Origin: Fibrobacter sp. UWB4
GTDB taxonomy: Bacteria; Fibrobacterota; Fibrobacteria; Fibrobacterales; Fibrobacteraceae
DNA length: 64,000 nt
Direction of reading: 5' to 3'
Assembly: GCF_002210345.1 (NCBI RefSeq)
Contig: NZ_MWQI01000002.1
Coordinates: forward strand, 62,001 to 126,000
The translations under genes and the position numbers were made by a program. This document shows, piece after piece, positions 6,649-36,338 of the stretch (positions are counted from its first letter, which is position 1; each line of letters opens with the position of its first letter). The notes under the pieces are model-generated. The model was not told the DNA's origin. It did no database searches and worked only from the letters and a program-made list of their open reading frames with translations.

Positions 6649-8661
6649 TTAGCGGACTGCAACGCGCTTCGTAGCGAGGACCTTGCGGCCTTCGGAGAGG
6701 CGAACAATCACAGCACCCTTGCCAGCAAACTGAGCCATGTCAACGGTCTTTGCAGCACCGGAGAATGTTTCAGAGAGCAGCATGTCACCGCGAACACTAA
6801 AGATCTTCACGGACTTCACGCCGTTGGAGGTCGTTGCGATGTTCAAGGTGTTGTTCATGACAACCAAGCTAGCCTTCGCTGCAACTGCGGCAACGACATC
6901 GAGCGTACCGTTGTTACGGCCATTAGCCTTGGAAATAACCGGATCTGCCTTCGGCTTCACGACTTCAGGTTCACCGCAAGAGGTTTCGACCCACCACCAG
7001 GTCTGGGAGGCTTCTTCGTTAATCCACTGCGGAACACCTTCACGGACGCGGTCCGGATTCATGGTGTAGCACTTGCCAGCACCCATGTTTCTCAAACCAG
7101 AGTTGTAGCAATGCTGATCGTAGTCGCCCGTACCGTTCTTGAATTCGATGCAAGCAGAGACGACGATTTCGCTAGAGCTAGATTCAACAGAGCTGGAAGA
7201 TTCCACGCTAGAGCTGGATTCAGCAGAGCTGGAGGATTCTTCGCTGGAGCTGGATTCAACAGAGCTGGAAGATTCTTCGCTGGAGCTAGAAACGACTTCG
7301 CTAGAGCTAGAGACAACCGTACCACCGCACGGAGTTTCAACCCACCACCAAGTCTGGGTAGCAATTTCGTTGATCCAGAGCGGGTTTTCGTTCTTGCGGT
7401 CCGGGTTCATGGTATAGCACTTGCCCGGAGCCATTTCCTTAAGACCAGAGCTGTAGCAGTGGTCGCCGTAGTTGCCCGTACCGTTCTTGAACTCGATGCA
7501 AGCAGAGACGACGATTTCACTAGAGCTAGATTCAACAGAGCTGGAGGATTCTTCGCTGGAGCTGGATTCTTCGGAGCTAGAAGATTCTTCGCTAGAGCTG
7601 GATTCTTCGGAGCTAGAAGATTCTTCGCTGGAGCTGGATTCTTCGGAGCTAGAGGATTCTTCGCTAGAGCTGGATTCTTCAGAGCTAGAAGATTCTTCGC
7701 TGGAGCTGGATTCTTCGGAGCTAGAAGATTCTTCGCTAGAGCTGGATTCTTCGGAGCTGGAGCTTTCTTCGCTGGAGCTAGATTCTTCGGAGCTGGAGCT
7801 TTCTTCGCTAGAGCTGGAATCCGGATTATAGGAACTGGTAATTACAATATATTCTTCTTCGCTGGAGCTGGATTCAGCAGAGCTGGAGGATTCTTCGCTG
7901 GAGCTGGATTCAACAGAGCTGGAAGAGACTTCGCTAGAGCTAGATTCAACAGAGCTGGAGGATTCTTCGCTGGAGCTGGATACAACAGAGCTAGAAGATT
8001 CTTCACTAGAACTAGAGACGACAGAGCTGGAGCTTTCTGCGCTGGAGCTAGAAAGTTCAACACCGCACGGAGTTTCAACCCACCACCATGTCTGGGTGGC
8101 GATTTCGTTGATCCAGAGCGGGTTCTCGTTCTTGCGGTCCGGGTTCATGGTGTAGCACTTGCCCGGAGCCATTTCCTTAAGACCAGAACTGTAGCAGTGG
8201 TCGCCGTAGTTGCCCGTACCGTTCTTGAACTCGATGCAAGTAGAAACGATCGGTTCTACGCTGGAGCTAGAGACAACAGAGCTGGAGCTTTCTGCACTGG
8301 AGCTAGATTCCACGCTGGAGCTGGATTCTACAGAGCTGGAAGAGACTTCGCTAGAGCTAGAGACGACAGAACTGGAGCTTTCTGCGCTGGAGCTGGAAGC
8401 AGCTTCGATGCAAGGCGTTTCAGTCCACCACCAAGTCTGGGAAACCATCTGGTTAATCCACTGCGGGACGCCTTCCTTAATACGATCCGGGTTGATGGTA
8501 TAGCACTTGCCCGGAGCCATATCGAGAAGACCTGAATTATAACAATGCTTGTCATAATCGCCCGTTCCGTTTACAAACGGAATACAAGGAGAAGCTTCTT
8601 GAGCAAACACCATTGCTGATGCCAAGCCCAAGAATAAGGTTGTTTTTTTGGTTGTTTTCAT
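6649..8661 (-). CDS. Secreted protein with four Cys/Trp-rich modules on poly-Ser linkers
   Basis: The 670-residue protein has a signal peptide (about 1-21), four copies of a ~58-residue module, three long Ser-Ser-Ser-Ser-Glu-Glu type linkers, and a ~90-residue C-terminal tail. Each module runs from CI.F.NGTG through HCY.SGL, GKCYT.NPDR and WIN to QTWWW.ET.C, with four Cys (possible two disulfides) and a Trp triplet; I do not recognise the module family. Surface aromatic residues would suit carbohydrate binding, which is inference. Modules 2 and 3 are identical in protein. The tail (VKSVKIFSVRGDMLLSETFSG ...) resembles T9SS sorting domains, as does that of the neighbouring GH8 enzyme, so extracellular or surface location is likely. 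The linkers resemble those of Fibrobacter fibre-degrading enzymes. Start ATG follows AAAAAAGG at a suitable distance. Confidence 0.8.
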   Translation of the reverse strand: MKTTKKTTLFLGLASAMVFAQEASPCIPFVNGTGDYDKHCYNSGLLDMAPGKCYTINPDRIKEGVPQWINQMVSQTWWWTETPCIEAASSSSAESSSSVVSSSSEVSSSSVESSSSVESSSSAESSSSVVSSSSVEPIVSTCIEFKNGTGNYGDHCYSSGLKEMAPGKCYTMNPDRKNENPLWINEIATQTWWWVETPCGVELSSSSAESSSSVVSSSSEESSSSVVSSSSEESSSSVESSSSEVSSSSVESSSSEESSSSAESSSSEEEYIVITSSYNPDSSSSEESSSSEESSSSEESSSSEESSSSEESSSSEESSSSEESSSSEESSSSEESSSSEESSSSEESSSSEESSSSEESSSSEESSSSEESSSSVESSSSEIVVSACIEFKNGTGNYGDHCYSSGLKEMAPGKCYTMNPDRKNENPLWINEIATQTWWWVETPCGGTVVSSSSEVVSSSSEESSSSVESSSSEESSSSAESSSSVESSSSVESSSSEIVVSACIEFKNGTGDYDQHCYNSGLRNMGAGKCYTMNPDRVREGVPQWINEEASQTWWWVETSCGEPEVVKPKADPVISKANGRNNGTLDVVAAVAAKASLVVMNNTLNIATTSNGVKSVKIFSVRGDMLLSETFSGAAKTVDMAQFAGKGAVIVRLSEGRKVLATKRVAVR
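7540..7815 (-). repeat. Tandem repeat encoding about fifteen SSSSEE units
   Basis: An 18-bp unit (codons for Ser x4, Glu x2) is repeated about fifteen times; longer 36-bp periods are visible because GCTGGAG and GCTAGAA variants alternate. It forms the longest linker of the four-module protein. Such a tract can change in length by slippage while keeping frame. Shorter related tracts lie at about 7160-7310 and 7860-8060. Confidence 0.85.
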
Positions 8662-10494: not shown

Positions 10495-11952
10495 TTAATG
10501 CGCTGTGCGATCCATCACGACAAAAAGAGAATCACGGTACGCAACGTGCCATTTTTCGCTAGAATCAAGGGTTCCAAGCAATTTATCCCACCTCGCATAA
10601 TAGCGCAAAGGAAGCACGACACGGTCGATATCCAGCGAATCGGCATCGTGGAGGAATGTTTGCGGGGACTCGGCGTACTGCAAATATTTTTCAAAAAATT
10701 CCGCCGTTTTCAAGATAAAACGTCCATCGATGAATGTCGAATCAGATGGATTCATAAACGCCAAATAGCCGCCGGCGCGATCATCGTTAAACAGCCTGCC
10801 CGAATGCGGATTTTCAAGCATCCACTGCGTCGCCGCCACAGGCACACGCTGGTACGCAACCATGGAACGGTCATAAAACGCAAGGGATTTCGCCCAAAGA
10901 CCAAGGGTAAAGGCGATAAGGAGAGTAGGAAGCAGGCGGTAGGCAGCAGGCGGTAGACGATTGGGCAAACGCGAAGGTCGAACATCGTGACTCTGCTTGC
11001 ATAGACATAACCGAGGCCAGCATTTGACGCCTACTGCGAAAAACACCGGCAAAAAGAGAACGAAATTGCGTTCGGCAACAAGAGCAAGAATCGCAGTTGT
11101 CAAAAGCCAAACCGATTCAGAACGGCGCAAATGACGAACCGACGCAACAATCCCCGCCAAAGAAAATACAACCATCAGCGCCGACTGCAAAACGTTCTCC
11201 CCAGCCTTCAAAAGCGTAATGGGCGAACGGTTCTCCGCAATTTCACTCGCAAAAAACGCTGCCGAAGGAGAAAGCCCTAGCAAACGGTCCAGCAAGCCAA
11301 ACGGATACAGGAACAAGTTCAGTCCATCGCGATGCAAGAGCGGCATTGCAAACAGCAATACGACAAACGCACCCCAGCGACGGCTCCACCCATTCGCCCA
11401 TAAAATCAAAAGTGCAAAAAGCGGGCCTAAAATATAAAGTCCCTGAAACCGGCACCACAACCATTGTATGGCTAGAATCAAGACCGCCGCCCCCGCTGTT
11501 TTCACGACATTATGCGGCTTGGCAACGCGATTCGCGCATAATCCGCGCATTTCATTTCGGGAACGGAACAACCACGGCAACACATTCCAATAAATCCCGA
11601 GAAACAACAAGCTAAAAAGCACTGGCCTAATTTCAAGCTGGTATCGGAAAATAAAGAGGATAACCACAGCAATCGCGGAAGACATCAAATTGCGGCATTT
11701 CACGCCACGCAAAAACAACGCAAATACAAGCCCCCACAATATCGCCTTGAACACGACTAAAAGCGGAGCACCGCCAACATCATAGACAATTGCCACCACC
11801 TGCTGAAAATACTCGTGTACATTCACAACAGGCTCACGCACAGGCGTCCAGGTCGTCACCCATTTGCGCGCACAGGCCAAGTGCCACCAGATATCGGTAT
11901 CCGTCAGTGGGAAAACTGCAAAAAGAACAACAGAAACGATTATCAAAAACAA
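10495..11952 (-). CDS. Polytopic membrane protein with C-terminal exported domain
   Basis: The 485-residue protein opens with a membrane segment followed by TDTDIWWHLACARKW, an Asp/Trp/His motif seen in large hypothetical membrane proteins of glycosyltransferase (GT39/oligosaccharyltransferase-like) type, then about nine further hydrophobic segments and a ~110-residue hydrophilic C-terminal domain (GRLFNDDRAGGYLAF ... FIDGRFI). A role in transferring a sugar or other group on the outer face of the membrane is possible but unproven. Start is TTG at 11952, supported by AGGG eight bases upstream; it lies 22 bases after the stop of the preceding lipoprotein gene, so the two are probably co-transcribed. 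Residues around 325-345 (RLPNRLPPAAYRLLPT) are encoded by an interspersed repeat. Confidence 0.65.
   Translation of the reverse strand: MFLIIVSVVLFAVFPLTDTDIWWHLACARKWVTTWTPVREPVVNVHEYFQQVVAIVYDVGGAPLLVVFKAILWGLVFALFLRGVKCRNLMSSAIAVVILFIFRYQLEIRPVLFSLLFLGIYWNVLPWLFRSRNEMRGLCANRVAKPHNVVKTAGAAVLILAIQWLWCRFQGLYILGPLFALLILWANGWSRRWGAFVVLLFAMPLLHRDGLNLFLYPFGLLDRLLGLSPSAAFFASEIAENRSPITLLKAGENVLQSALMVVFSLAGIVASVRHLRRSESVWLLTTAILALVAERNFVLFLPVFFAVGVKCWPRLCLCKQSHDVRPSRLPNRLPPAAYRLLPTLLIAFTLGLWAKSLAFYDRSMVAYQRVPVAATQWMLENPHSGRLFNDDRAGGYLAFMNPSDSTFIDGRFILKTAEFFEKYLQYAESPQTFLHDADSLDIDRVVLPLRYYARWDKLLGTLDSSEKWHVAYRDSLFVVMDRTAH
10919..10967. repeat. GTAGGAAGCAGGCGGTAG-type repeat inside the membrane protein gene
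   Basis: The tract GTAGGAAGCAGGCGGTAGGCAGC followed by AGGCGGTAGACGA is of the same type as tracts at 6316-6347 and about 26746-26776. Here it lies in frame in the coding sequence and encodes a Leu/Pro/Arg-rich insertion on the other strand. Confidence 0.65.
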
Positions 11953-11974
11953 GTTGCAAGCCCTAGAAAGTCAA

Positions 11975-14890
11975 TCACTTTGATTTTCGCAAAGACTTTA
12001 TCAGAGAATCGAGACGCGCAGAAAATTTTTCGGCACCAAACTTATTCAAATGATCATAATCATGAGCCATCGAACTTGGGTAATCGTGATCGCCCATTTT
12101 ATTTTCATCCATGAAAATAAAATTCGAATTTTCATCCTCCATTCGGCGCATTTCTTCAATCAATTTTTCTGCATGGCTACGCAGCATTCCATGACGCGAA
12201 TAGGAACCTGTTTTTTTATAATACGGACTTACAGGGAATGTAACCCCAACAACTGTGATATTTTGCATTTTCGCCAAACGGACAAGATCTTTCAGCTTTT
12301 CGTAATTACTAAAGAAATCCGAAAGGCATTCATTGAAAGGATGATAGGCCAAACACATATTCACATTCGAATCCGGCATGCAATTTTCTAAATGGTAAGT
12401 CGAACGACAGATTTCACTTCTATTGTCAATAACACATTCAGCATAATCTTTATCCACCAGGCAAGTACTCCACGTTGAATCTATATCAATTTCAGCCACG
12501 CCATTTTCATCAGTCCATCCACGTTTTTCCATACTCTCAAACCAGCCTTTACGGGCAACAAACTCTTCAGCATCAACAGGTGAATTAAGCTTTACCAAAT
12601 TGACAAACGAAGAATCAACCCCTTCTGGGTAAAACTCATGATTTACATCATATTCAAAGCCCAAAGAACCGCTCATATTCCTATCAACATCCGTATGCCC
12701 ATCATAATTGAACCACATATCAAAATCAAGACTTACAACAACATATTTCAATTTTGGACATTGATTTGAAACATAGTTTTTAAAAAGATAATGGATGCAA
12801 TGCATGTCGCAGGGAATTCCAGAAAAATTCAAGGAAGGAACACTCATATCAAGCGGATTAAAACCAGATCTCATACGAGAATTGCCAAGTCCAATCAATT
12901 CTATGGAATCCTTAAAAGTCCAGAAAGCAAGCATTTTACGGGATAATTCACTAGCAGACAGATTTTCCGCAGAAAGATACACGCCCACGCTGTCTTCGCT
13001 CCAACTAGTTTCACTCGTCGTTTTATCAAATGGTGTCCAGAAACAAGGGTGCCAAAGTTCATCGCCCTCAACAAGATTCGTTATAGAGCCTGTTTTTATA
13101 TTCACCAGCGCAATTTTCTGATGCGCACCATCAAAATTTGTAAGTGTAACCACCGCAAAATTGTCTTCATTCAGGACCCATTCGCTATGATCGAATGTAT
13201 AACCCTTTGGGGCAGCAACAGAAGTACGCAATTTTCCTTGCTCATCGGCAACAAGCAAACGTTCATGCACCTGATAGTTTTTTCCAACAAATTCGGTCCC
13301 AGTCTTTCCTGCAAAATCCAGAAAAAGCGTTTGTTTAGAATTCCTGTTCAATGAAGCGTTGCAAGCCTGATCGCTATTGAACCATACCGTATCGACAGCT
13401 TTGGATGTTACCGTAGACTTGTTCTTTGCAACACGGGCCCGCAATAGACGCGCCCCAGAGACAGAGAGCTTTTCATCATTGCTAATTCCCCCATGATAAG
13501 CGCCATCGAAAAGCTTAACAGGCTTGCCAAAGGCTCCCTTTGAAAAAGGAACCTGCCAAGTACTCTGCGAAAAGAAATCAGACTTTTCTTTATTGTTTCC
13601 AGCATCTGTAACATAGACAATTACCGTATCCCCATTTTCAAGGACGCGCCAACGCGGAATCGCAGCAGATTTGACATCCAGCTTAACAAGATTCGTTCCC
13701 ACTTCGTTCAGATCGCGAACATAGACCGTTGATTTACCGGCAATACCTTCCAGTCCAGTACAAAACGCCACATGCTTTCCGTCCGGTGAAATATCAGGAT
13801 GATAGACCTCTAGCGAATCCTTTATTTCAACAGCAACCGGAGATATCTTTGACAAATCGACATAAACCAAATTTCCAGAGACATCATTACGGAAAGCCAG
13901 TTTCAAACGGTTTGTCCCTAAAAGGGACGACAACATTTTCCTATTGGGCAAGACAAGGATATTCGAAGAAATGGCCTCCCCCGAAGCATCAAGCCAAACT
14001 GGTTTTGCGATTTTTCCATACGCTAGACGAAATCCCAAATAGTCCGAATAACTTGCACTCGTTACAGTATAGACATCGCCCCGCGAATAAAGATTTATTG
14101 TCGAAGGATCGCTCCTAAAGCTACCCCCCTTAATAACGCGTTCATCAAAGTTACCTCCATTCAAAGCACCCATATAATTTGAAATTACCGTATCCTGGAA
14201 ATTTCCAAGCCAGTCATTCACCCATTCAGCTACATTACCCGACAAGTCACAAAAGCCCTTTTTATCTTTCTTCAGGCATACTTCATGTGTCGCAAAATCA
14301 GAATTACTTGAATTCCAGCTATTCGTCGAATCAAATGAAAGACCCGACGCGAACACCCATTCAGCTTCTGTCGGCAAGCGGAACGCATCAACTTCAGGCT
14401 TAAACTTAAAGCCTTCAAGCAACACACAATGGCCGTTCTTGTCAAATTGCGCTGAAGAATAGGAATAAGCGGAATCAATCCCGTTTTTTTTGCTTTTCGC
14501 ATTGGCAAAGAGAACGGCATCATAATAAGTCACATTAGCCGCAGGCAGTGATTCATTGTCACAATCAAGCGTAAGGTGCCCCTTTTTCCCTCCCATAAGG
14601 TCGTTAAACTCTTTACAAGTGATTTCACTTTTGCCCAACAGAAAACTGTAATCAAAAGCAACTTCCATTTCAGGCCGTTCATTGCTTTTCGCTGATTTAA
14701 GAGCCGTACCTAGTACTACTGATTTTCCAGCAGATTTGATATAGATAAAATCATCCTTCAAATCAACATTTGAGCAATCAACATCCCATGCGAATCCATT
14801 TGTAGATTCCCCAGAACACGCCACAAGAAACAGCATTGCTACAGCTGCAATTAAAGTAAAAAAAGATCCTCTCGCATATACTCCATACAT
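11975..14890 (-). CDS. Lipoprotein with FGE-like, TolB-propeller and SGNH domains (copy 1)
   Basis: About 971 residues: signal with lipobox FLVACS, an FGE/SUMF1-like domain (about 45-295; GFRLAYGK at its end), a TolB/PD40-like beta-propeller (about 310-640; YHPDISPDGKHVAFCTG), and a C-terminal SGNH-hydrolase-like domain with GLGNSR as block I and YDHLNKFGAEKFSARL as block V. I recall this architecture as the Fibrobacter paralogous family TIGR02171, function unknown. This copy has a Cys-rich insertion in the C-terminal domain (CLVDKDYAEC, CRSTYHLENC and others) not present in the other three. The FGE part lacks the catalytic Cys. The ATG at 14890 follows GGGG at eight bases. Last of four tandem copies, directly before the membrane protein gene. 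Confidence 0.8.
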   Translation of the reverse strand: MYGVYARGSFFTLIAAVAMLFLVACSGESTNGFAWDVDCSNVDLKDDFIYIKSAGKSVVLGTALKSAKSNERPEMEVAFDYSFLLGKSEITCKEFNDLMGGKKGHLTLDCDNESLPAANVTYYDAVLFANAKSKKNGIDSAYSYSSAQFDKNGHCVLLEGFKFKPEVDAFRLPTEAEWVFASGLSFDSTNSWNSSNSDFATHEVCLKKDKKGFCDLSGNVAEWVNDWLGNFQDTVISNYMGALNGGNFDERVIKGGSFRSDPSTINLYSRGDVYTVTSASYSDYLGFRLAYGKIAKPVWLDASGEAISSNILVLPNRKMLSSLLGTNRLKLAFRNDVSGNLVYVDLSKISPVAVEIKDSLEVYHPDISPDGKHVAFCTGLEGIAGKSTVYVRDLNEVGTNLVKLDVKSAAIPRWRVLENGDTVIVYVTDAGNNKEKSDFFSQSTWQVPFSKGAFGKPVKLFDGAYHGGISNDEKLSVSGARLLRARVAKNKSTVTSKAVDTVWFNSDQACNASLNRNSKQTLFLDFAGKTGTEFVGKNYQVHERLLVADEQGKLRTSVAAPKGYTFDHSEWVLNEDNFAVVTLTNFDGAHQKIALVNIKTGSITNLVEGDELWHPCFWTPFDKTTSETSWSEDSVGVYLSAENLSASELSRKMLAFWTFKDSIELIGLGNSRMRSGFNPLDMSVPSLNFSGIPCDMHCIHYLFKNYVSNQCPKLKYVVVSLDFDMWFNYDGHTDVDRNMSGSLGFEYDVNHEFYPEGVDSSFVNLVKLNSPVDAEEFVARKGWFESMEKRGWTDENGVAEIDIDSTWSTCLVDKDYAECVIDNRSEICRSTYHLENCMPDSNVNMCLAYHPFNECLSDFFSNYEKLKDLVRLAKMQNITVVGVTFPVSPYYKKTGSYSRHGMLRSHAEKLIEEMRRMEDENSNFIFMDENKMGDHDYPSSMAHDYDHLNKFGAEKFSARLDSLIKSLRKSK

Positions 14891-15018
14891 ATCAAGTCCC
14901 CTTATTTTTACCATATATAGCTTTTTTAAGGAAACATCTTTAAAAGTGCGCCAAGACGCCGCGTAAATTTTGCAGCGTCAAGCGTACTTAAAAAGGATAT
15001 ATGCCAAAAGTTCATATT

Positions 15019-17811
15019 TTATTTAAGCGTTTTCAACAAGGAATCTATCCTCGCCGTTATAACTTTTGCACCCTCTAGCCCCAGATGATCTTCGTTGGAA
15101 AACTCACCTTCAGCATAGTCATGGTTACCATCCTTGTATTCATCAAGGACCTTGAAATTCGGATATTTATCAACAAGTTTCTGAACGGATTGCTTTATGA
15201 TTTCTACAGCATCACGAGTTGGTCCATAGCGTCCCCAAGATATTGTTTTTGTATAATTTGGAGATTGCGGATAGATAACGCCAACAACGTTGACTTCGAA
15301 ATTACGGGCAAACTCCAGTATTTCTAGAAGTTTTTGCAAGTTGTAGTTATAGCGTAATTTATCATAATCAAACCATAGCGGGTCATAATCAATAGGAGGC
15401 ACATCGCTACCCCAGCCTACTGTAGTCGATTTGTACATTCCACGATGATACCCGAATAATTCATATTCATATTCATTCGGATTCAATGCCGCCTGAGATG
15501 CAGCCACCATATCGCCAATAAAACCGTCCTGCCAGTAGTTATGGTTTTTATCGTATTCATATCCAGGAATATTGGAGAACCAATCAATCCAGTTTTCATC
15601 TTTAACATACCAGCGATCATAATCCAAAGCCAGAACTATCGTTTTCAACTTCGGCATCAAAGGCAAGATATAATTTTTAACAAAGAAATTCGTACTCATC
15701 AAATCTTGAGCGGAATAAGACATATTTATAGCAAATCCTGATTTGATAAATTCAGGATCCACGCCCGCGAACGATCTGGACGAACCGATAACAACGACCT
15801 CTGCGGAATCTTTATACTTCCAGAAATAATCCATTTTTACTTTCATGATTCGAGTATAAATATTCGTTTTTTCGGTCATATAAGCACAAGCACTATCAAG
15901 ATTAAGCTTGTCATCGCCACTAGGCGGGACTATCGTCTTAACCCATAAGCTCGGGTGCCAAAGTTCATCGCCTTCAGCAAGGTCAACAATGCTGCTATCA
16001 GACAAATTCACCAAAACAATTTTCCCATGAGCATAATCAGCATTTGTAAGCGTCGCAACAACAAGGTCGCTAGCACCAGAAACCCATTCCGTGTGATCAA
16101 ATGCATAACCGTTCGGAGCTTCTACAGACTGGATAAGCTTACCTGTAGAATCGGCAATCAACAGCCTCTTATGCGTTCCATAATTTTCGCCAACAAATTT
16201 CTGTCCAGTTTTTCCACCAAAATCAAGGAACAGCGTACGTTTGCTGCCATCCTTAGCAATAGAGACATTGCAAGCCTGCTCTGCTTCTTTGCCATTTTTA
16301 TACCATACCGTATCGACCGCTTTTCCAGAAAGATTCGAGCCTTTCGCTGCGATACGCGCACGCAATTGCTTCGAGCCAGAAACAGCAAGCCTGTCATCTT
16401 CGCTGATGCCCCCGTGATAAGCGCCATCAAACAATTTTTGGGGTTTCCCAAATTTTCCATTCGAGAACTTCACCTGCCAGGTAGAAGCCTTCTTGAAAGA
16501 CGATTCTTCCGTATTGTCATCTGCATCGGTCACATAGACGATAACCGTATCGCCATTTTCCAAGACTCGCCAACGCGGAATTTCAGCGCTTTCTACATCC
16601 AGCTTGACAAGGCCAGAACCAGATTCTTTCAAATCGCGCACATAAAGAGCAGAATAGGCTTTTGTACTCTTGTTATAACTCGAGACTCCTTCATATCTCG
16701 TGCAAAAAGCAACTTTTTGACCATCTGGCGAAATTTCAGGATGATAAGCATCAAGAGAATCTGAAATTTCATTCACTGAAAGCATCCCACTCGAATAATC
16801 GATAAATGCAATATTCCCCATAGGATTATTGCGGAAAGCAAGCTTCACATGGAAAGTTCCAGTCTTTGATCGCAATGCTGCTGAATTTGCAAGAGGCGAG
16901 ACACGGCTCGTAATAGCCTTGCAATCTTTTCCCATCCATTCTGCATCAGGAATCGAACCAAATGCTAGACGGAAACCAACATAGTCAGCCTTAGTCGCCG
17001 ATGTAACCATGTAAGTATCACCACGATTATAGAGCTTAATTACGTCCGCCTTGCTATGGTAGCTTCCTCCCTTCAAGACACGTTCGTCATTAGAACCACC
17101 ATCAGGAGGTCCAATAAAGTTCTTTACGGGCTGGTCACAGAAGTATCCGAGCCAGTCATTGACCCATTCCATTGCGTTTCCGACAATGTCACATACAGAT
17201 TGGCTCGAATCCGTCTTACTGCAGACTTCATGCAATTTAAAATCAGAATTTTCAGAAGTCCACGCTTCAGACGTTTTCCAATACTTTAAAGCAACAAGAG
17301 ACCATTCTGCTTCTGTCGGCAAACGATAGGCATCAACTTCTGGATGGAAGACGAAACCTTCTAAGTTTGTACAGCGCTTTTTCTCGTCAAACTCGGCACT
17401 AGTATAGGTATAGGCAGTATCTAAAAAGCCCTCAGCTTTACTACGTTCATTTGCATAAAGCACGGCATCATAAAATGTCAAATTCGTTGCCGGAATCTTA
17501 TCGCTAGAGCATTCCAATTCAAGCCCAGTCAGAGGCTTCATGAGGGAATTGAACTCGCCACAAGTAACCTCATGCTTCCCAATCGAAAAGTCATAATCCA
17601 TTGTGACTTTCATCTCGGGGCGTTCATTGACATTGGCCTTGGCATCGTTCGTTCCAAGACTGACGACCGAATTATCGGCATGGACAAGAAGCATTCCCGC
17701 AAGAGAATCATTCTCCGTCGTAATTTTATTGTTGGGAGAAGAAACGCCACCAGATTCCGAGCATGCAACTAGAAATAAAACAGAGAAGAAAAGAGATAAT
17801 TTTTTTATCAT
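15019..17811 (-). CDS. Lipoprotein with FGE-like, TolB-propeller and SGNH domains (copy 2)
   Basis: About 930 residues with the same plan as its three neighbours: lipobox FLVACS at about 18, FGE-like domain (YDFSIGKHEVTCGEFNSLM ... YVGFRLAFG), propeller with YHPEISPDGQKVAFCTR, and SGNH-like domain with VIGSSRSFAGVDPEF and NEDHLGLEGAKVITARI. GSSRS followed by G-V-D-P is typical of SGNH proteins that act on surface glycans or polymers, so an esterase or acyltransferase role is possible; no partner is proven. The ATG at 17811 (MIKKLSLFF) is preferred to a TTG nine bases upstream. Separated from copies 1 and 3 by about 130 and 70 bases. Confidence 0.8.
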   Translation of the reverse strand: MIKKLSLFFSVLFLVACSESGGVSSPNNKITTENDSLAGMLLVHADNSVVSLGTNDAKANVNERPEMKVTMDYDFSIGKHEVTCGEFNSLMKPLTGLELECSSDKIPATNLTFYDAVLYANERSKAEGFLDTAYTYTSAEFDEKKRCTNLEGFVFHPEVDAYRLPTEAEWSLVALKYWKTSEAWTSENSDFKLHEVCSKTDSSQSVCDIVGNAMEWVNDWLGYFCDQPVKNFIGPPDGGSNDERVLKGGSYHSKADVIKLYNRGDTYMVTSATKADYVGFRLAFGSIPDAEWMGKDCKAITSRVSPLANSAALRSKTGTFHVKLAFRNNPMGNIAFIDYSSGMLSVNEISDSLDAYHPEISPDGQKVAFCTRYEGVSSYNKSTKAYSALYVRDLKESGSGLVKLDVESAEIPRWRVLENGDTVIVYVTDADDNTEESSFKKASTWQVKFSNGKFGKPQKLFDGAYHGGISEDDRLAVSGSKQLRARIAAKGSNLSGKAVDTVWYKNGKEAEQACNVSIAKDGSKRTLFLDFGGKTGQKFVGENYGTHKRLLIADSTGKLIQSVEAPNGYAFDHTEWVSGASDLVVATLTNADYAHGKIVLVNLSDSSIVDLAEGDELWHPSLWVKTIVPPSGDDKLNLDSACAYMTEKTNIYTRIMKVKMDYFWKYKDSAEVVVIGSSRSFAGVDPEFIKSGFAINMSYSAQDLMSTNFFVKNYILPLMPKLKTIVLALDYDRWYVKDENWIDWFSNIPGYEYDKNHNYWQDGFIGDMVAASQAALNPNEYEYELFGYHRGMYKSTTVGWGSDVPPIDYDPLWFDYDKLRYNYNLQKLLEILEFARNFEVNVVGVIYPQSPNYTKTISWGRYGPTRDAVEIIKQSVQKLVDKYPNFKVLDEYKDGNHDYAEGEFSNEDHLGLEGAKVITARIDSLLKTLK

Positions 17812-17883
17812 AATAACCAAAATAGAAAAAATACTTTTCCAAAGCTAAAGAAATTAACTTAATTATTCCGTATTTTCACAAAC

Positions 17884-20607
17884 TCATTCCAAAGTCATTA
17901 GCAAAGAATCAAGTCTATGCGTAAACAGCTTTGCCCCCACACCGCTCAAGTGATCCGCATTGTAAGCCATATCATCCGTATAGTCGTGTTCACCAAATTT
18001 GTTTTCGTCAAACACAATGGCATCGAACTTTTTAGAAGCTTCAATAAGTTCCATGGCAATACTACGACGCGGTCCATAAATACCAAACGTTCCCGTTTTC
18101 GCATAACCCGGATTCTGCGGCAAGACGGCCAATACGACCTTTAGCCCTGCTTGACGGGCTTCAACTACAATTTCTTCAAGCAAATGCTCATTTTCGGCAA
18201 ATACAGGGGATTCATATGTAAGCACATTCGAATCCCTGATGCAAACGGCGGCAGCCCAGTTTCCGGTCGGCAATGAAAAATCTTCAAGTGTATAGAGAAG
18301 CTGCAAAGCGGATTCAGGACGAGGAGTTTCCTTTACGACATCCAAAAAATGTTCTGGCAGGCTATCCACCCAGAAATCATGATTTTCATCGTACATATAT
18401 CCAGGAACCTTATTGTAAATCACATCAATCCAGGTCGCATTTGCATCCGCCCAGAATAAATCTGGCGATAATTCCAAAACCAGGACCTTCAATTTTTTCA
18501 AATGTTTCAGAATATAATTTTTAAACAAGTAACTCGCACCTGCCATCTGTCCCGCAGAAAAAGCCATATTCAACATATTATGGGATTTCACCTCTTTATC
18601 GCGAAGAGCAAACATCATTCTCGACGAACCGAGCGCTACAGCGGTAATTTCATTTCGATTTTCCCAGAAGCGTTCCATCTTAACGCGAAGATCCAAAGCG
18701 CCACTAGACGCCGAAGTTAGATAATAGACCCCCGCACTGTCCGTATCAAGAGTTTTACCTTCGTAGCGATTTTTGGAATGCCATAGACACGGGTGCCAAA
18801 GTTCATCGCCTTCGACAAGAGTCTTGATTGAATCTGTAGACAGATCAACCAGAACAATTTTTTGATGGGCGCCATTCAGGTTCGTAAGCGTCGCAACCAC
18901 CAGATTCGAGCCGCCCAAGGCCCATTCCGTATGATCAAAGGTATAGCCTTGTGGCGCGGCCACACTATGAACAAGTTCTCCTTTCTCATTTGCAACTAGA
19001 AGCCTTTCATGGGTATTGTATGATTGACCTACATAATTAGCCCCAGTCTTGCCGCCAAAATCAAGGAATACCGTCCGGTTACTGCCATCATTAGCAAGAG
19101 AGACATTGCATGCCTGCTCTCCATTATACCAGACAGAATCTTTCCCAGACGACATTCGTACACGCAAAAGAGTAGATCCCGTAACCGCAAGCTTCTTATC
19201 AGAACTTACGCCTCCATGGAACGCCCCATCAAAAAGCTTTTGCGGTGTTCCAAATTTTCCTTTTGCAAACGGGACTTGCCATGTACTCATAGCCGCAAAG
19301 TCAGCATCCTCTTTATTATTTGCGGCACTTGAAACATAGACAATAGAGGTGTCGCCCTCATCCGTGACGCGCCATCTTGGAATCGCAGCGCTTTTGACAT
19401 TCAGCTTCACAAGTCCTGAACCCGAAGCATCTAAATTTCGGACATAAATACTTGAAGTCCCAGGAACCCCTTCGACGCCCGTACAAAATGCAACAAGTTT
19501 GCCATTTGGCGAAACATCGGGATGGTAAGCCTGAATTGTATCCTTGATTTCAACGACGGAGTTGATTCCGTTTCCATAGTCGATATACGCCAAGTTGCCC
19601 GTCAGATCATTGCGAAAAACAAGCTTTGACTGGAACGAACCCGTCATGTGCTTAGTCTCATAAATTCCTAACAGCGGAATCACAACGGACTCTTTAGCAG
19701 TACCATTTTCATCAAGCCAAATCGCATTAGGGATCGGTCCTATTGCAAGCCTGAATCCTAAATAATGGCCTTTTGTCGATGACGATACCGTATAAATATC
19801 ACCACGGCCATAGGTGTTTATCTGTGACGGGTCGTCCCGGAAACTACCTCCCTTGACAACGCGTTCCCCAAGACTTCCACCATCAGCGCCTCCCACAAAA
19901 TTCGTTACAGGACTACTGCTAAAAAAAGTAAGCCAGTCATTCACCCATTCTAGGGCATTCCCAGCCATATCGTAAACGCCAAGATCATTTGCTGGAGAAG
20001 TTGCTACGTCCTGAATTTCAAAATGAGAATTTTGATTATTCCATCCCTTTTCAGGATACCAACCTTGACTTGCGACATACACCCATTCAGCCTCAGTCGG
20101 TAAACGAAATCCATTTACTTTTTCATGAAAAACAAGCCCATCCAAATCAATACAGCTTCCCTTTGCATCGAAAGAAGCTTTCGTATAAGTATAGACGGTA
20201 TCCAAATTTTCAGCCTTGCTTTTTGCATTTGCGAAAAGAACCGCATCATAGTACGTCACATTTGTCACAGGACTCTTATCATTACACACACCACTACATT
20301 CGGCACCGGCATTTCGCCGCAAGGCACTGTACTCCGCACGGGAGACTTCATGTTCGCTTATATAAAAATTATAAGTAAAACTAGCATCCATTCTCGGATA
20401 TTCACTAGCACGTCCGCCTTCTCCATTTATTCCAAGCGATGTTTTTTGACCATTCGCATTAACATAGACAAAGCCATCAAAACTGAGCACCGGCGGAGAT
20501 TCAATGCCATACGGGAATTTATTTTCCTCAGTACATGAATTAAAAAAAACAAGGGAAAATAAAACAGCCGCAAGCAATCCAAAATTCATCTGAACGACAT
20601 TTTTCAT
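17884..20607 (-). CDS. Lipoprotein-like protein with FGE-like, TolB-propeller and SGNH domains (copy 3)
   Basis: 907 residues. The N-terminus is a hydrophobic signal with a poor lipobox (FFNSC), then an FGE-like domain (YNFYISEHEVSRAEYSALR ... YLGFRLAIGP), propeller (YHPDVSPNGKLVAFCTG) and SGNH-like domain (ALGSSRMMFAL; NADHLSGVGAKLFTHRL). Block V has Asn where copies 1 and 4 have Asp two positions before Asp-His, a possible difference in the catalytic set. Its ATG overlaps the TGA of copy 4 (ATGA), so the two are translationally coupled. The strong conservation of domain order beside divergence in sequence suggests old duplications with separate roles. Confidence 0.8.
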   Translation of the reverse strand: MKNVVQMNFGLLAAVLFSLVFFNSCTEENKFPYGIESPPVLSFDGFVYVNANGQKTSLGINGEGGRASEYPRMDASFTYNFYISEHEVSRAEYSALRRNAGAECSGVCNDKSPVTNVTYYDAVLFANAKSKAENLDTVYTYTKASFDAKGSCIDLDGLVFHEKVNGFRLPTEAEWVYVASQGWYPEKGWNNQNSHFEIQDVATSPANDLGVYDMAGNALEWVNDWLTFFSSSPVTNFVGGADGGSLGERVVKGGSFRDDPSQINTYGRGDIYTVSSSTKGHYLGFRLAIGPIPNAIWLDENGTAKESVVIPLLGIYETKHMTGSFQSKLVFRNDLTGNLAYIDYGNGINSVVEIKDTIQAYHPDVSPNGKLVAFCTGVEGVPGTSSIYVRNLDASGSGLVKLNVKSAAIPRWRVTDEGDTSIVYVSSAANNKEDADFAAMSTWQVPFAKGKFGTPQKLFDGAFHGGVSSDKKLAVTGSTLLRVRMSSGKDSVWYNGEQACNVSLANDGSNRTVFLDFGGKTGANYVGQSYNTHERLLVANEKGELVHSVAAPQGYTFDHTEWALGGSNLVVATLTNLNGAHQKIVLVDLSTDSIKTLVEGDELWHPCLWHSKNRYEGKTLDTDSAGVYYLTSASSGALDLRVKMERFWENRNEITAVALGSSRMMFALRDKEVKSHNMLNMAFSAGQMAGASYLFKNYILKHLKKLKVLVLELSPDLFWADANATWIDVIYNKVPGYMYDENHDFWVDSLPEHFLDVVKETPRPESALQLLYTLEDFSLPTGNWAAAVCIRDSNVLTYESPVFAENEHLLEEIVVEARQAGLKVVLAVLPQNPGYAKTGTFGIYGPRRSIAMELIEASKKFDAIVFDENKFGEHDYTDDMAYNADHLSGVGAKLFTHRLDSLLMTLE

Positions 20608-23453
20608 TTTTTTGACTCCAGAGACAGCAAAACGTCATTCAGCCGAGATGTAAGCCTCATAGCACCGGCATTGCACAAGTGGTCTTCATCAATCGCCATT
20701 TGTCCGTCATAATCATGCTTGCCCATTTTATTTTCATCCATCAACACAAAATTCGGATACTTTTTATTCAAAGCTTCTAATTCACTAATCATCTTTTGAG
20801 CAACGCTACGACGAAGGCCATAACGTCCAAAAGCACCTGTTTTCGCATACTCCGGACTCTGCGGGAAAATAAGGCCAATCACACGAACATCTCTCTTGGC
20901 GGCTTCTTTAACGATATCGATAAGCGCATTCTTGCTATCGTTATAAATGCCCTTATGTTGATCATAATAGGTGCTATCCATTTCAATTTCGGGCTTTTCT
21001 TTCCATTCCCACTGGCAATAAGCATTTGTATAGCGCCCACGATCGTTCATATAGTATTTTTCATCCGATGAACCTACAGAATTCTGTGTATATTCCAGCA
21101 AGCCTTCCGGAACACCGTCTTTCCAGTAATCATGATTTTTATCATACACATACCCTGGATAATTATCAAAAGTCGTATAGAATAAATTATCTCCATCAGG
21201 TCCATCAATTTTATACCAAAAATCAATATCTAGCGAAACAACAATATACTTCAGCTTTTTCAGATGGTTAAAGAGATAATGATTTAATAAATCCCTAGAC
21301 GTATAAATAGAATTTGGTGTATGGCCAAAATTCACAGCAAAAAATTTTTCATCCAATCTAGATGGGCTAACTCCATACATGGACCTCGAAGAACCCAATA
21401 TCGCCACATTAATAGAATCATGGTATTTCCAGAGAAGTTCCATTTTAAACCGCATGATAATAGAGGCCCACTCATCCGATGGATGCAAATAAACGCCAGC
21501 ACTGTCCGGATCAAGTTTAGATTTTTCAGGGGCATAATTTTTTGTTCGCCAAAGACATGGATGCCAAAGATCATCACCTTCCACCAAATCCAGGATTGAA
21601 CCATCCGCAACATTCACGAGAACAATTTTCAAATGGGCGCCATTTGCATTTACGACCGTAGCCACAATAAAGCCGCCATCCTTTTTAGCATCGGCATAAT
21701 TCAGCGCCCATTCCGTATGGTCAAATGTAAAGCCTTCAGGCGCAGGAATAGTCTTAATAAGCTTTCCTGTACTGTCAGCAATCAGCAAACGTTCGTGCGT
21801 TCTGTAACTTTTTCCAACAAACTCAGCTCCTGTTTTTCCACCAAAATCAAGGAACGCTACACGCTTGGATCCATCGTTTGCAAGGGAGGCATTGCAAGCC
21901 TGTTCACCGTTATACCACACGGTATCGCGACCATCCGAAAGCATTTTTCCCGGATTTGCAATACGCGCACGAAGCAGACGGGCGCCAGTAACAGCAAGTG
22001 TATTGTCGTCAGAAACACCTCCGTGATACGCCCCGCTAAAAAGCTTTTGAGGCGTTCCGAATCGACCTTTTGCATACTTCACTTGCCATGTACTCTTGGA
22101 TTTAAATTCCGAAGTTTCTTTATTGTTTCCCGCATCGGACACATAGACGATCACCGTATCGCCATTATCCAGAACTTTCCACCGTGGAATAGAAGCATTT
22201 CCCTTGATATTAAGCTTTATAGGTCTTGTTTTGGATAGACCCAAAGGGCGAATGTAAAGATCAGACTTTCCAGAAACGCCTTCTAGACCTGTACAAAATG
22301 CAATAAGCCTACCGTCTGGAGAAATATCTGGATGATAAGAATCTAGTGTATCTGTGATTTCAGAAACAGATAAAGTTCCATTAACGTAATCGACAAACGC
22401 CAAGTTTCCCGTTGCATCATTGCGAAAGGCAAGCTTAATATGATATGTATCAAAATTTTTTTTGATGACAGAAGCACTCGCTAACGGCATGATTCGGCTT
22501 TCACGAACTAAACCGTCATGTCCCATCCAAACCGCATTTGGGATCTTGCCGAATGCAATACGGAATCCCAAATAATCTGACTTTGCCGCCGAAGTCACAA
22601 TGTAGACATCGCCACGATTATAAAGCTTGATAGAAGACGGATCGTTGCGATAGCTACCGCCCTTAATGACCCGTTCCCCAAGAACTCCGCCATCTGGAGC
22701 ACCGACAAAGTTTGTAATGGTCGTATCTCTAAAATAGTTAAGCCAATCAGAAACCCATTCCTTCACATTTCCGCCCATGTCACAGAAATCACCGTGAAGG
22801 TGCGGATACGAACAAACATTTTTGGGTTCGAAATCTGAGTTCTGCGCATTCCATTCCGCAGACGGGTTCCAATCGCGATCGGCAGCCAGGATCCATTCCG
22901 CTTCCGTAGGCAAACGATATGCGTCTACTTCAGGATGAAAGACTAACCCTTCCATTGAAGTACAGTTTCCGATATCATCTATATTTGCAGATGAATACGT
23001 ATAGGCCGTATCGTAGCCTTCCCGTTTGCTGCGTTCATTGGCATAAAGGACGGCATCGTAATAAGTCACCTTTGTTACAGGCAACAGATCAGAATCCTTG
23101 CCTCGGCACCGTTCGTCAAAAGTTGTCCCCATAACACTTTTAAATTCAGCGCAAGTGACTTCATGCATGCCTAAGGAATAATCATAATTCAGGGCAACAC
23201 GCAACTGGGGCTGTTCATTTACTTTCGCGGAGGGCGCATAAGTACCAAGATAAGTCACCGAGCCGCCGCTTTTATGCTTTACATTCGAAGCTCTAACAAC
23301 CACAAGGCCGTCATGAACCTTATCCTCTTCTATCGGAGCATGGAGCCAGACATGATCCCCCAAAAAAGTTTCACATCCAGAAAGCACAAGAACGGCCGAT
23401 ACTAAAAAAAGTATCTCTTTAAAAAATTTAAAACAATTACGAGCTGTGGACAT
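20604..23453 (-). CDS. Lipoprotein with FGE-like, TolB-propeller and SGNH domains (copy 4)
   Basis: About 949 residues and first in order of the four copies. Lipobox VLSGC, FGE-like domain (YDYSLGMHEVTCAEFKSVM; CDMGGNVKEWVSDWL; YLGFRIAFGK), propeller (YHPDISPDGRLIAFCTG) and SGNH-like domain (AILGSSRSMYGVSPSRL; DEDHLCNAGAMRLTSRL). The nucleophile Ser in GSS and the Asp/His pair look intact. ATG at 23453 chosen because it begins a normal signal peptide; a TTG 39 bases upstream is the alternative. The closeness of GGGG to this ATG is unusual (two bases). Coupled to copy 3 by an ATGA overlap. Confidence 0.78.
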   Translation of the reverse strand: MSTARNCFKFFKEILFLVSAVLVLSGCETFLGDHVWLHAPIEEDKVHDGLVVVRASNVKHKSGGSVTYLGTYAPSAKVNEQPQLRVALNYDYSLGMHEVTCAEFKSVMGTTFDERCRGKDSDLLPVTKVTYYDAVLYANERSKREGYDTAYTYSSANIDDIGNCTSMEGLVFHPEVDAYRLPTEAEWILAADRDWNPSAEWNAQNSDFEPKNVCSYPHLHGDFCDMGGNVKEWVSDWLNYFRDTTITNFVGAPDGGVLGERVIKGGSYRNDPSSIKLYNRGDVYIVTSAAKSDYLGFRIAFGKIPNAVWMGHDGLVRESRIMPLASASVIKKNFDTYHIKLAFRNDATGNLAFVDYVNGTLSVSEITDTLDSYHPDISPDGRLIAFCTGLEGVSGKSDLYIRPLGLSKTRPIKLNIKGNASIPRWKVLDNGDTVIVYVSDAGNNKETSEFKSKSTWQVKYAKGRFGTPQKLFSGAYHGGVSDDNTLAVTGARLLRARIANPGKMLSDGRDTVWYNGEQACNASLANDGSKRVAFLDFGGKTGAEFVGKSYRTHERLLIADSTGKLIKTIPAPEGFTFDHTEWALNYADAKKDGGFIVATVVNANGAHLKIVLVNVADGSILDLVEGDDLWHPCLWRTKNYAPEKSKLDPDSAGVYLHPSDEWASIIMRFKMELLWKYHDSINVAILGSSRSMYGVSPSRLDEKFFAVNFGHTPNSIYTSRDLLNHYLFNHLKKLKYIVVSLDIDFWYKIDGPDGDNLFYTTFDNYPGYVYDKNHDYWKDGVPEGLLEYTQNSVGSSDEKYYMNDRGRYTNAYCQWEWKEKPEIEMDSTYYDQHKGIYNDSKNALIDIVKEAAKRDVRVIGLIFPQSPEYAKTGAFGRYGLRRSVAQKMISELEALNKKYPNFVLMDENKMGKHDYDGQMAIDEDHLCNAGAMRLTSRLNDVLLSLESKK

Positions 23454-23548
23454 TTCCCCATAAAAATAGCTTTTTACGTCTATCAAAACCAAGAACGCCC
23501 CGTTGGCATCCCTTTTAAATAAGCAGAAAAAACGTGAAATGCGCCGAG

Positions 23549-24358
23549 CTACAATAAATCCGGCAATCGGCTTTTTGCAACAGCCTGATTCACGCCAACA
23601 CCCGGATATTCAGGGAAAAATTCTTCGGCCATGCGGTACCACGTAAGCGCACGAGGAATGTCGTTTTCAAGATACAGATTGCCGATATCAAATGCGGCAA
23701 GCCCTATGAACTGTCGTGTTTCAAGAGGCTTAAATTCAAGACCGGTCCAGGGACCTTTTTGGTACTTTTCACGGTATTCTTCATCGGTGTAGGTAAAGCC
23801 GCGACGGTTCGGTTCCAGGTTCACAAAACTGTCCGAGGTGCCGTAACGCAAAAAGACGTGTCCCGGAAGGAGAATGGCGTCGAGAGGCAAACCGCGCACT
23901 TCGGCCACCATGAGCGCAAGCCACGATAGCCCCATGCAGCCGGACTTTCTGTTTACAAGAACGCGAAGCGGGAGCACGGATTCTTTTGCAACCGCAGCCT
24001 CGCCCGCCCCGGCAAATTCGATATTCCAAAATTGCCAAAGCAGATTTTTTAGGGATTGCAAAGTATCGTGATTCACTGCGACACTGCTATCAAAATAAGC
24101 AAGCCCCGCATGCCAATCGCTAACAGAATCAAGGCAACCCGGCGCACGTTCTTCAAAAACGCAAGCCATTTCGCGATAGCTCATGGACTCGTTCTTCCCG
24201 TTCCAAAGCAGAAACGGGAGTGCAATTACAAGCGTCGCGAGGAAAAGCAGCCAGAATAGTTTGGACGAGAGACGAAAGACGAGAGACGAAAGACCCTTCT
24301 CTAGTCTTTCGTCTGTAACGAGCTTCGCGAGCGTTCTTTCGTCTAGAAGCCGTCCCAT
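23549..24358 (-). CDS. Membrane-anchored transglutaminase-like (SirB1-type) protein
   Basis: 269 residues: one N-terminal membrane segment (KLFWLLFLATLVIALPFLLW), then a transglutaminase-like domain with Cys in SGCMGLSW, His in LLPGHVFLRYG and an acidic residue in VNLEPN, and a C-terminal TPR-like stretch (IPRALTWYRMAEEFFPEYPG). The family folds like papain-type proteases and transglutaminases; SirB1-type members are mostly of unknown function. It overlaps the end of the AlgX-like gene by 16 bases and precedes the lipoprotein array, so co-transcription is likely. The first ~33 residues are encoded by an interspersed repeat (24264-24346), and ATG 24358 is the only visible start, so the N-terminus seems to have been created or replaced by the repeat. 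Confidence 0.7.
   Translation of the reverse strand: MGRLLDERTLAKLVTDERLEKGLSSLVFRLSSKLFWLLFLATLVIALPFLLWNGKNESMSYREMACVFEERAPGCLDSVSDWHAGLAYFDSSVAVNHDTLQSLKNLLWQFWNIEFAGAGEAAVAKESVLPLRVLVNRKSGCMGLSWLALMVAEVRGLPLDAILLPGHVFLRYGTSDSFVNLEPNRRGFTYTDEEYREKYQKGPWTGLEFKPLETRQFIGLAAFDIGNLYLENDIPRALTWYRMAEEFFPEYPGVGVNQAVAKSRLPDLL
24264..24346. repeat. AGACGAAAGA-type repeat at a gene junction
   Basis: On the minus strand AGACGAAAGAACG, then a variable centre, then ACAGACGAAAGACTAGAG, and further direct copies of CGTCTTTCGTCTCTCGTC. It has the same framework as elements inside the radical SAM gene (29176-29219) and hrpB (54067-54110). It spans the stop of the AlgX-like gene and the first codons of the transglutaminase-like gene. 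Confidence 0.7.
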
Positions 24359-26304
24359 TCCATCGGGCTTTGCCAGTAGTCGCGAGCGGTCATCATGTAA
24401 ATCACGAGACGCTTGCTCAGCATGTCCTTTTTCATCTTCTTGAGGCGAGCGCGAACGCCAGGGCCACCGCCCCAGCTCGTAAGCACCTGCACATCAAGCC
24501 CCGTTGCATAAGCAAGCAGAGAACCCGGGCCACCGCTCTTCTGGTCCACAGATTCAAACACGCCCGTGAAAGAATCGCCCATCAAGAGGATCGGTGCATT
24601 TTTGCCGCCCTTGTAAGCCTTGTCGCCCTTGTAGATTTTCATGCCTGCAAGAGTATCGGCAGCATACTTGGACTTTTCCTTATCCGGCAAGTGAGCGACC
24701 AAGTCCCCTTCGCGCAGCACTACCGTATCCTTCATCACGAGGCTACCCGGTTGCGGATTCGCATCGGCATACCAGCTGTACTGCGTCACGCGAGAAGCAA
24801 GCTGTTCCATTGCAGCAAGCATGCCCGGCAGCGCCCAGTGCGTATCGTAGCGCTGGTAGCTGTAATGCGGAGCGTCATCGCCACTGCGGGCCGCCATCAG
24901 CGACGGGTAAAGGTCAAGTACGTCAATCCCAGCCGCAAGCATTTCACGGATAAATTCACGACCATTTACGTTCACGCACAAATCTGCAGGTGTTCCCTTT
25001 ACAAGCATGTCTGCATAAATTTCTTCTTTCACAGGAACCGGAACCACGAGAAGCTGAACATTCATGGAATCCAAGTACTGCTTGAGTTCAATCATTCTCG
25101 GAAGCGGATTGTGGAGGCTATCCTGACCGCTAATTTTATCTGCAACAAGATAGTTTGCATTGCGACGGAACCAAAGCATTCCGTTATCGGCCCAGGCATT
25201 CTGTTCCTTCGGGAGCTTCGAGAGTTTTTTCTTCAAGGCTTCGCGGAACTTCTTTGTCGCAGGCGTTGCAGGGCAGCTATTTTCCATAGCGGCAAGCGTT
25301 TCCAAACGAGCATAAGAACTCGTATCAAGGGTACGGTTCACAGGCACCACTTCGCCCGCAGCAGCAAGAGAATCAGCCACGGCAGCAGCACGGAGCTGTT
25401 CATCCGTCAAGCGGAACGCAGGAACTTCAAACGCCACCCACATAGGCTTACCCATCGGGTTTCCGCGCATCACTGCAAACGGACGATTAGCGCGGGAATT
25501 TTCCCAAATGGCACCTGGAGTATGTTGTTCCAAGTCCGTATTCAAAGTCGGATACCAGTAAGACGAGAGCGTACGCGCCCAGTTCATCGCCTCTTCACTG
25601 TTCATCTCGGCCGTCATGTAGTAGTTCAAGACTTCCGCAGACTCGCCGCCCGAAACAAACTTGAGTTTACCGTAAAATGGAGCACGGCCTGTCCAGACAG
25701 CAGGCATCACTTCGGCCCACCATTCAATTTTGCCCTGATTATCACCTGTTCCAGGCACTCCCCACAAACGACTTACAGTCTGGAAAGCGCGGAAAACATC
25801 AGGTTCATTCCACTTGACCGCCTCAACTTCATTCAAAGCCTTTGCAAGGGCATCATCGCCCGTCTGCGCATAGAGAATTTTCGCAAACGGTTCCCACGCA
25901 ATCGGAGCTACACCGGCAACAGCCTCCGGTTCGTATTCCGAAATCGAGTCGAGCATCGGGAAAGGGTATTCAGCAAGTTTTGCATTTGCCATTTTGCCCG
26001 TGTAATTTTCAGGCTTTTCATCCATACCCGCCATGCGAATCGGATTCGAAAAATACGCTGCAAAATCGAGAGCCGCAAGAGTTGGCTTCTCGACGACACG
26101 CACTTGCTTATCAAAATCAAGCACACGCATTTCAAAGACAGCGACTGGAGCAACAGGCATCGGAGGAATGTAATCCGGGGTCTTTGATTCAGCTGCTTGA
26201 ACGGAAGGATTGACAGACGGAGCTGCACAAGATGCAGCAAGGAACATACCCGCAGAAAGCCCTGCAAGGCACAAAAAAGAAGTCGATATTTTTTTCATTT
26301 TCAC
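24343..26304 (-). CDS. AlgX/AlgJ-like SGNH protein, exported
   Basis: 653 residues: signal with a weak lipobox (FLAASCAAP), an N-terminal half of ~330 residues I do not recognise, and a C-terminal AlgX/AlgJ-like SGNH domain. The second half shows LLMGDSFTGVFE (block I, Ser nucleophile) and YDTHWALPGM (Asp-x-His-Trp motif of AlgX/AlgJ), with the DTHW motif before the GDS motif as in that family. Characterised members O-acetylate alginate and other exopolysaccharides in the periplasm. First gene of the probable envelope operon leading into the transglutaminase-like protein and the four SGNH lipoproteins, which hints at shared work on a surface polymer. Start is ATG 26304; a second ATG six bases on is equally possible. 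Confidence 0.72.
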   Translation of the reverse strand: MKMKKISTSFLCLAGLSAGMFLAASCAAPSVNPSVQAAESKTPDYIPPMPVAPVAVFEMRVLDFDKQVRVVEKPTLAALDFAAYFSNPIRMAGMDEKPENYTGKMANAKLAEYPFPMLDSISEYEPEAVAGVAPIAWEPFAKILYAQTGDDALAKALNEVEAVKWNEPDVFRAFQTVSRLWGVPGTGDNQGKIEWWAEVMPAVWTGRAPFYGKLKFVSGGESAEVLNYYMTAEMNSEEAMNWARTLSSYWYPTLNTDLEQHTPGAIWENSRANRPFAVMRGNPMGKPMWVAFEVPAFRLTDEQLRAAAVADSLAAAGEVVPVNRTLDTSSYARLETLAAMENSCPATPATKKFREALKKKLSKLPKEQNAWADNGMLWFRRNANYLVADKISGQDSLHNPLPRMIELKQYLDSMNVQLLVVPVPVKEEIYADMLVKGTPADLCVNVNGREFIREMLAAGIDVLDLYPSLMAARSGDDAPHYSYQRYDTHWALPGMLAAMEQLASRVTQYSWYADANPQPGSLVMKDTVVLREGDLVAHLPDKEKSKYAADTLAGMKIYKGDKAYKGGKNAPILLMGDSFTGVFESVDQKSGGPGSLLAYATGLDVQVLTSWGGGPGVRARLKKMKKDMLSKRLVIYMMTARDYWQSPMEWDGF

Positions 26305-34897: not shown

Positions 34898-34911
34898 GAT
34901 TATACCTCGCT

Positions 34912-36231: not shown

Positions 36232-36248
36232 ATAGACAAATTCCTTTA

Positions 36249-36331: not shown

Positions 36332-36338
36332 TTCATCC

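Follow-up and report, generated by a model that had tools for sequence, protein, structure and literature searches.

Relation to Known Acylation Systems

Several bacterial systems transfer acyl groups through an MBOAT protein and an SGNH partner. In AlgI–AlgJ–AlgX, which O-acetylates alginate in Pseudomonas, two SGNH proteins accompany the MBOAT, and both AlgJ and AlgX carry their catalytic motifs in permuted order, with DxH ahead of GDS (PMC4148444). PatA–PatB and DltB–DltX–DltD likewise place an extracytoplasmic SGNH protein beside the MBOAT, and the FXYXXF acyl-shuttle motif, whose tyrosine bears the acyl group in PatA, is common to other bacterial MBOAT–SGNH systems (PMC12148441). Here we analyze a 64,000-nucleotide stretch of the gut fibre degrader Fibrobacter sp. 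UWB4 (the window; contig NZ_MWQI01000002.1, here C2, positions 62001–126000), in which seven minus-strand genes at 10495–26304 encode an AlgX/AlgJ-type protein (P1), a transglutaminase-like protein (P2), four lipoproteins of NCBIfam family TIGR02171 (P3–P6), and a predicted GT-C glycosyltransferase-type protein (P7). Comparative evidence suggests that this locus is probably one part of a split Fibrobacterota system for envelope O-acylation and glycosylation, with the TIGR02171 proteins acting as surface SGNH acyltransferases or esterases.

The Fibrobacterota system resembles AlgI–AlgJ–AlgX in having an MBOAT with an FXYXXF-type tail and two permuted SGNH proteins. It differs in that it was seen without alginate genes, in the long N-terminal region of P1, in its additional GT-C, transglutaminase-like, and TIGR02171 proteins, and in being split over the genome in Fibrobacter. 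With PatA–PatB and DltB–DltX–DltD it shares the acyl-shuttle tail and the extracytoplasmic SGNH partner; unlike them, it has two AlgX-like partners and extra, canonical SGNH lipoproteins. MBOAT–AlgX systems and GT-C enzymes are thus known kinds. What is new is the domain assignment for TIGR02171 and the genome-wide MBOAT–AlgX link; as far as the literature searched extends, an association with multi-copy lipoproteins combining domains like those of formylglycine-generating enzyme (FGE), a propeller, and SGNH is undescribed.

The AlgX-Like Proteins and the MBOAT

P1 (24343–26304) is a lipoprotein of 653 residues that matches PF16822 (ALGX) in the Pfam search at E = 1.8e-18 (67.6 bits against a cut-off of 26.5). 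Its D487-T-H489-W motif precedes G576-D-S578, the permuted order of AlgJ and AlgX. Among 40 orthologues from throughout the phylum, at least 97% retain the catalytic residues D487, H489, and S578. The N-terminal ~390 residues match no known family, and the sequence profile of P1 retrieved no solved structure. P2 (23549–24358), 269 residues long and membrane-anchored, matches PF13369 (Transglut_core2; 3e-9); of the 42 orthologues compared, at least 95% conserve C141, H167, N180, and E182. An earlier note, made from the letters of the window, had placed an AlgX/AlgJ-like SGNH protein and a transglutaminase-like protein ahead of the four lipoproteins, and both assignments hold.

The host genome encodes an AlgI-type MBOAT on another contig (C1:1144704–1146119). 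Its second AlgX-like protein (C2:55783–57504), encoded ~15 kb downstream from the P1–P7 locus, is transmembrane-anchored and also carries DxH before GDS. Both this protein and the MBOAT belong to the same families as the proteins encoded beside P1 in distant Fibrobacterota. All 14 MBOATs read, the host's included, end in FLYFQF, which fits the FXYXXF pattern. A row of FGE-like proteins (272–1543, minus strand, and L027:16097–19999) runs from the left end of the window toward the second AlgX-like gene, which lies outside it. A second host MBOAT (L034:2935–8485; 616 residues) ends in FIYFQF, is preceded by two large secreted proteins, and perhaps serves a separate acylation system; genomes lacking the MBOAT studied here keep one weaker MBOAT match (~1e-50), possibly the FIYFQF protein.

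P7 as a GT-C Protein

The seventh protein, P7 (10495–11952; 485 residues), had been described as a polytopic membrane protein; it is polytopic, and its predicted model refines that description to a GT-C glycosyltransferase-type protein with a C-terminal alpha/beta domain. P7 matched nothing in Pfam or NCBIfam, and its sequence profile retrieved no solved structure. A model built from 45 sequences (predicted local distance difference test, pLDDT, 88.9) matched the oligosaccharyltransferases STT3, AglB, and PglB over its whole length (Z 11–15 over 404–448 residues), DPY19 at Z ~13, and ArnT at Z 10.7–11.4, the oligosaccharyltransferase and ArnT matches together spanning 396–448 residues; Foldseek agreed on the fold. 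Helical models can attain high Z scores by chance. Of the 39 best-scoring rows, however, almost all were GT-C enzymes, unrelated proteins appeared only from Z ~5.5, and the C-terminal domain alone matched that of AglB (Z 8.7 over 112 residues). We therefore regard the assignment, made on a predicted model, as firm at the level of fold. GT-C enzymes bear a catalytic acidic motif after the first helix. Six residues of P7 (D18, D20, H24, H46, E240, and R295) are invariant in the 45 sequences, and D18 and D20, which follow the first helix, lie where that motif would be expected.

The same matches raise the alternative that P7 is a true oligosaccharyltransferase acting on exported proteins, with the AlgX and MBOAT proteins acylating its glycan and the TIGR02171 proteins serving as acceptors or glycan-editing lipoproteins. 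STT3, AglB, and PglB are indeed the closest folds over the full length, the AglB-like C-terminal domain included. Yet the fold fits an oligosaccharyltransferase and a single-sugar GT-C enzyme alike and cannot separate them—ArnT, ALG9, and arabinosyltransferases match at Z 8–11—while P7 has a far shorter C-terminal domain than STT3 and no acceptor is known. We consider this protein-glycosylation scheme unlikely.

The TIGR02171 Lipoproteins

P3–P6 score 1111–1298 bits against the TIGR02171 model, all about twofold above the NCBIfam cut-off of 544, and are thus members of the family: P3 (20604–23492; 1179 bits), P4 (17884–20607; 1298 bits), P5 (15019–17820; 1199 bits), and P6 (11975–14914; 1111 bits), the last with an additional insertion in its SGNH-type domain. 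The start of P3 is likely an internal ATG, at residue 14 of the listed open reading frame. The earlier note had counted four such lipoproteins correctly and put them at ~930–970 residues; their range is 907–979, P4 (907) being shorter than supposed. They are 44–49% identical to one another and are therefore old duplicates. TIGR02171 has no known function and is not named in the literature searched; the main text of the proteome papers mentions no TIGR02171 protein, by name or neighboring locus tag, among the orthologues of S85.

The proposed order of FGE-like, propeller, and SGNH domains is borne out to different degrees. FGE-sulfatase matches were found in all four proteins in Pfam (1e-23 to 1e-27), and in a model of P4 (98-sequence alignment; pLDDT 91) residues 40–293 adopt the FGE fold, best matched by Treponema TvpA (Z 28.7). 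Residues 310–612 form a TolB-like propeller in the model (Z 22); the PD40 profile match in Pfam is weak and confined to P3. Residues 635–904 follow the strand–helix order of SGNH hydrolases, with S662 just past the first strand and H886 ahead of the last helix. A Protein Data Bank fold search with the whole P4 model listed matches taken up by the FGE and propeller domains, with no SGNH row among them, and a viral fold library gave generic propeller and FGE matches only. FGE activity itself was rejected: the domain lacks the pair of active-site cysteines found in true FGE. Just 5 of 98 copies have a cysteine in that region, all at a single position, and what is left is fold similarity of the TvpA, PvdO, or PorK kind.

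The catalytic motifs of the C-terminal domain are highly conserved and stand in canonical order (S…N…DxxH), unlike the permuted P1, AlgX, and AlgJ. S662, N680, and H886 (P4 numbering) are present in 98/98 copies and D or N883 in 97/98. The GSSR or GNSR and (D/N)xDHL blocks that the earlier note had called intact are present as GSSR/N/DEDHL in P3, GSSR/N/NEDHL in P5, and GNSR/N/DYDHL in P6, and all nine TIGR02171 copies of the host genome retain GxS, N, and (D/N)xxH; in distant copies GxS persists, as does (D/N)xxHL in most. Profile comparison of this domain with P1 gave no similarity, which agrees with canonical versus permuted SGNH types. The family identity proposed earlier was correct; its supposed restriction to Fibrobacter was rejected, as full-length members run through the phylum.

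Five of the nine host copies lie outside the P1–P7 locus. One lies two genes away from a gene for a UDP-xylose-synthase-like protein, and next to that gene is one for a polyprenyl-P-sugar-synthase-like GT2. A second has a PF02397 sugar transferase gene within a few kb and an epimerase gene nearby. A third is flanked on one side by a Wzz/kinase gene and on the other by CotH, flippase, and GT2 genes, the Wzz and flippase genes being within a few kb. The neighbors of these solitary copies fit a role of TIGR02171 on envelope polysaccharides.

Gene Order and Co-occurrence

All seven genes lie on the minus strand, separated from P1 to P7 by −16, 56, −4, 63, 104, and 22 bp, the −4 being an ATGA overlap that joins P3 and P4. 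The locus reported earlier is thus confirmed. Shared strand and small gaps are weak evidence by themselves, but the order P1–P2–(n TIGR02171)–P7, with n = 1 to 5, recurs across Fibrobacter genomes. A TIGR02171 gene ends −16 to 36 bp from the start of P7 in 37 of the 47 P7-containing loci retrieved, and the order P3–P4–P5–P6 is largely retained in close relatives, each position being ~51–75% identical to its counterpart. Within the locus, a scan for promoter- and terminator-like sites stayed at chance level, RNA elements did not reach gathering score, and a search for phage origin returned just two matches in phage records, both weak and partial.

P1 and P7 also have orthologues in further families and classes of Fibrobacterota. 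In distant Fibrobacterota the split parts are contiguous, in the order MBOAT–second AlgX–P1–P2–P7–PD40 propeller, with P2 or P7 sometimes absent (L134–L140, L143–L147). An NAD-epimerase and a GT2 often lie upstream of these clusters, in some cases with a UDP-xylose-synthase-like gene; UDP-xylose-synthase-like and polyprenyl-P-sugar GT2 genes accompany the MBOAT cluster in L138 and L141, and the GT2 in L144 and L145; they are of the kinds found near one of the solitary TIGR02171 copies of the host.

These components tend to be present or absent together. Across 168 genomes, with presence scored by hand-set E-value thresholds, the MBOAT, second AlgX, P1, P7, and full-length TIGR02171 were all present in 87 and all absent from 60; outside the genus Fibrobacter, 27 genomes had all five and 47 had none. 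MBOAT and P1 occurred together in 96 genomes, MBOAT alone in 8, P1 alone in 0, and neither in 64; the corresponding counts were 97, 7, 1, and 63 for P7 and 96, 8, 4, and 60 for TIGR02171. Fifteen Fibrobacter genomes have no such MBOAT; P1, P7, and the second AlgX are missing from exactly these 15, and full-length TIGR02171 from 13 of them. Some TIGR02171 absences may be false, because four candidates per genome were scored. The adjacency and co-occurrence together give strong comparative support to the earlier suggestion of a surface-polymer modification related to AlgX/AlgJ, which we regard overall as partly supported.

Proposed Mechanism and Alternatives

The system we propose builds on observed gene order, co-occurrence, and catalytic motifs and on the predicted GT-C fold; the acyl relay we infer from family knowledge and co-occurrence. 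At the outer face of the inner membrane, the AlgI-type MBOAT would load its FLYFQF tyrosine with an acyl group, most likely acetyl. The second AlgX-like protein and P1, as putative physical partners of the MBOAT, would hand it to an exported glycan, much as AlgJ and AlgX do with alginate. P7, as an oligosaccharyltransferase/ArnT-class GT-C enzyme, may attach a polyprenyl-linked sugar or glycan to the same acceptor. As lipid-anchored envelope proteins, the TIGR02171 members might bind substrate or partners through their FGE-like domain and propeller and transfer or remove acyl groups through the canonical SGNH domain, with diverged copies serving different sites or polymers; P2 could be an accessory cysteine hydrolase or transferase. 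More tentatively, these parts may amount to an envelope pathway of the Fibrobacterota's own, in which an unnamed, oligosaccharyltransferase-like GT-C family coupled to the MBOAT–AlgX relay and to multi-copy TIGR02171 surface acyltransferases/esterases builds and edits an acylated glycan or glycoprotein coat.

Several observations weigh against this proposal. No polymer synthase or acceptor was identified. SGNH profile matches of the TIGR02171 C-terminal domain are weak, the best being those of one member to Lipase_GDSL_2 (0.0034) and of the phylum-wide profile to PAF acetylhydrolase (2.7e-4), with no firm SGNH family placement; its membership is therefore based on motifs and secondary-structure prediction. 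The MBOAT and second AlgX genes are unlinked to the P1–P7 locus in Fibrobacter, and the adjacency usual for MBOAT–SGNH systems, though not strictly defining, is absent for the host MBOAT, so that the case for a partnership with P1 comes from relatives and from co-occurrence. The co-occurrence counts and their Fisher P values ignore phylogeny, and the P values are not readable as significance; the 15 Fibrobacter genomes without the set may be one clade. Finally, four genomes (G058, 74% complete, G065, G132, and G150) have TIGR02171 with no MBOAT detected.

Gene linkage also bears on whether the locus instead serves fibre degradation, with the TIGR02171 proteins as surface esterases of the SGNH type that remove acetyl groups from plant cell-wall polysaccharides and their FGE-like domain and propeller as modules that bind carbohydrates or partners. 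Lipoproteins present in several copies, their canonical SGNH residues intact, would suit a host that degrades fibre, and the gene directly downstream of P7 encodes a GH8 enzyme bearing a type IX sorting tail, as GH8 genes also adjoin P7 in L038 and L040. Across the genus, however, the gene after P7 differs (PD40 propeller, GH8, others), the TIGR02171 family spans the whole phylum, and the genes with which it is linked and co-occurs are biosynthetic envelope genes (MBOAT, AlgX, GT-C), not glycoside hydrolases; we judge this explanation quite improbable. Very doubtful indeed is the idea that the TIGR02171 family consists of structural lipoproteins of the PorK/GldK kind, such as those of a type IX secretion system, with a non-catalytic SGNH domain: their FGE domain is similar to PorK/GldK both in sequence and in fold and a neighboring enzyme carries a type IX sorting tail, but FGE folds of other functions match equally or better (TvpA Z 28.7, PvdO 24.7, and FGE 23, against 22.6 for PorK), and a scaffold would not need the SGNH Ser and His kept in 98/98 copies.

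The link to MBOAT–AlgX and GT-C proteins gives the TIGR02171 family, with nine copies in the host, a first testable role. Surface glycans matter in Fibrobacter because fibre degradation requires attachment of the cell to plant fibre, and the fifteen Fibrobacter genomes without the set are natural comparison strains.

Neighboring Features

The GH8 protein downstream of P7 (8969–10414, minus strand) is an endoglucanase with a Por_Secre_tail-like C-terminus. Beyond it, a minus-strand gene at 6649–8661 encodes repeated cysteine- and tryptophan-containing modules, long SSSSE/SSSSV linkers, and a type IX sorting domain-like C-terminus, with no Pfam match. On the other side of the locus, also on the minus strand, are type I restriction–modification genes (HsdR, HsdS, and HsdM; 31925–38177) and a pectate lyase with a CBM6/CBM35-like module (38588–40276).

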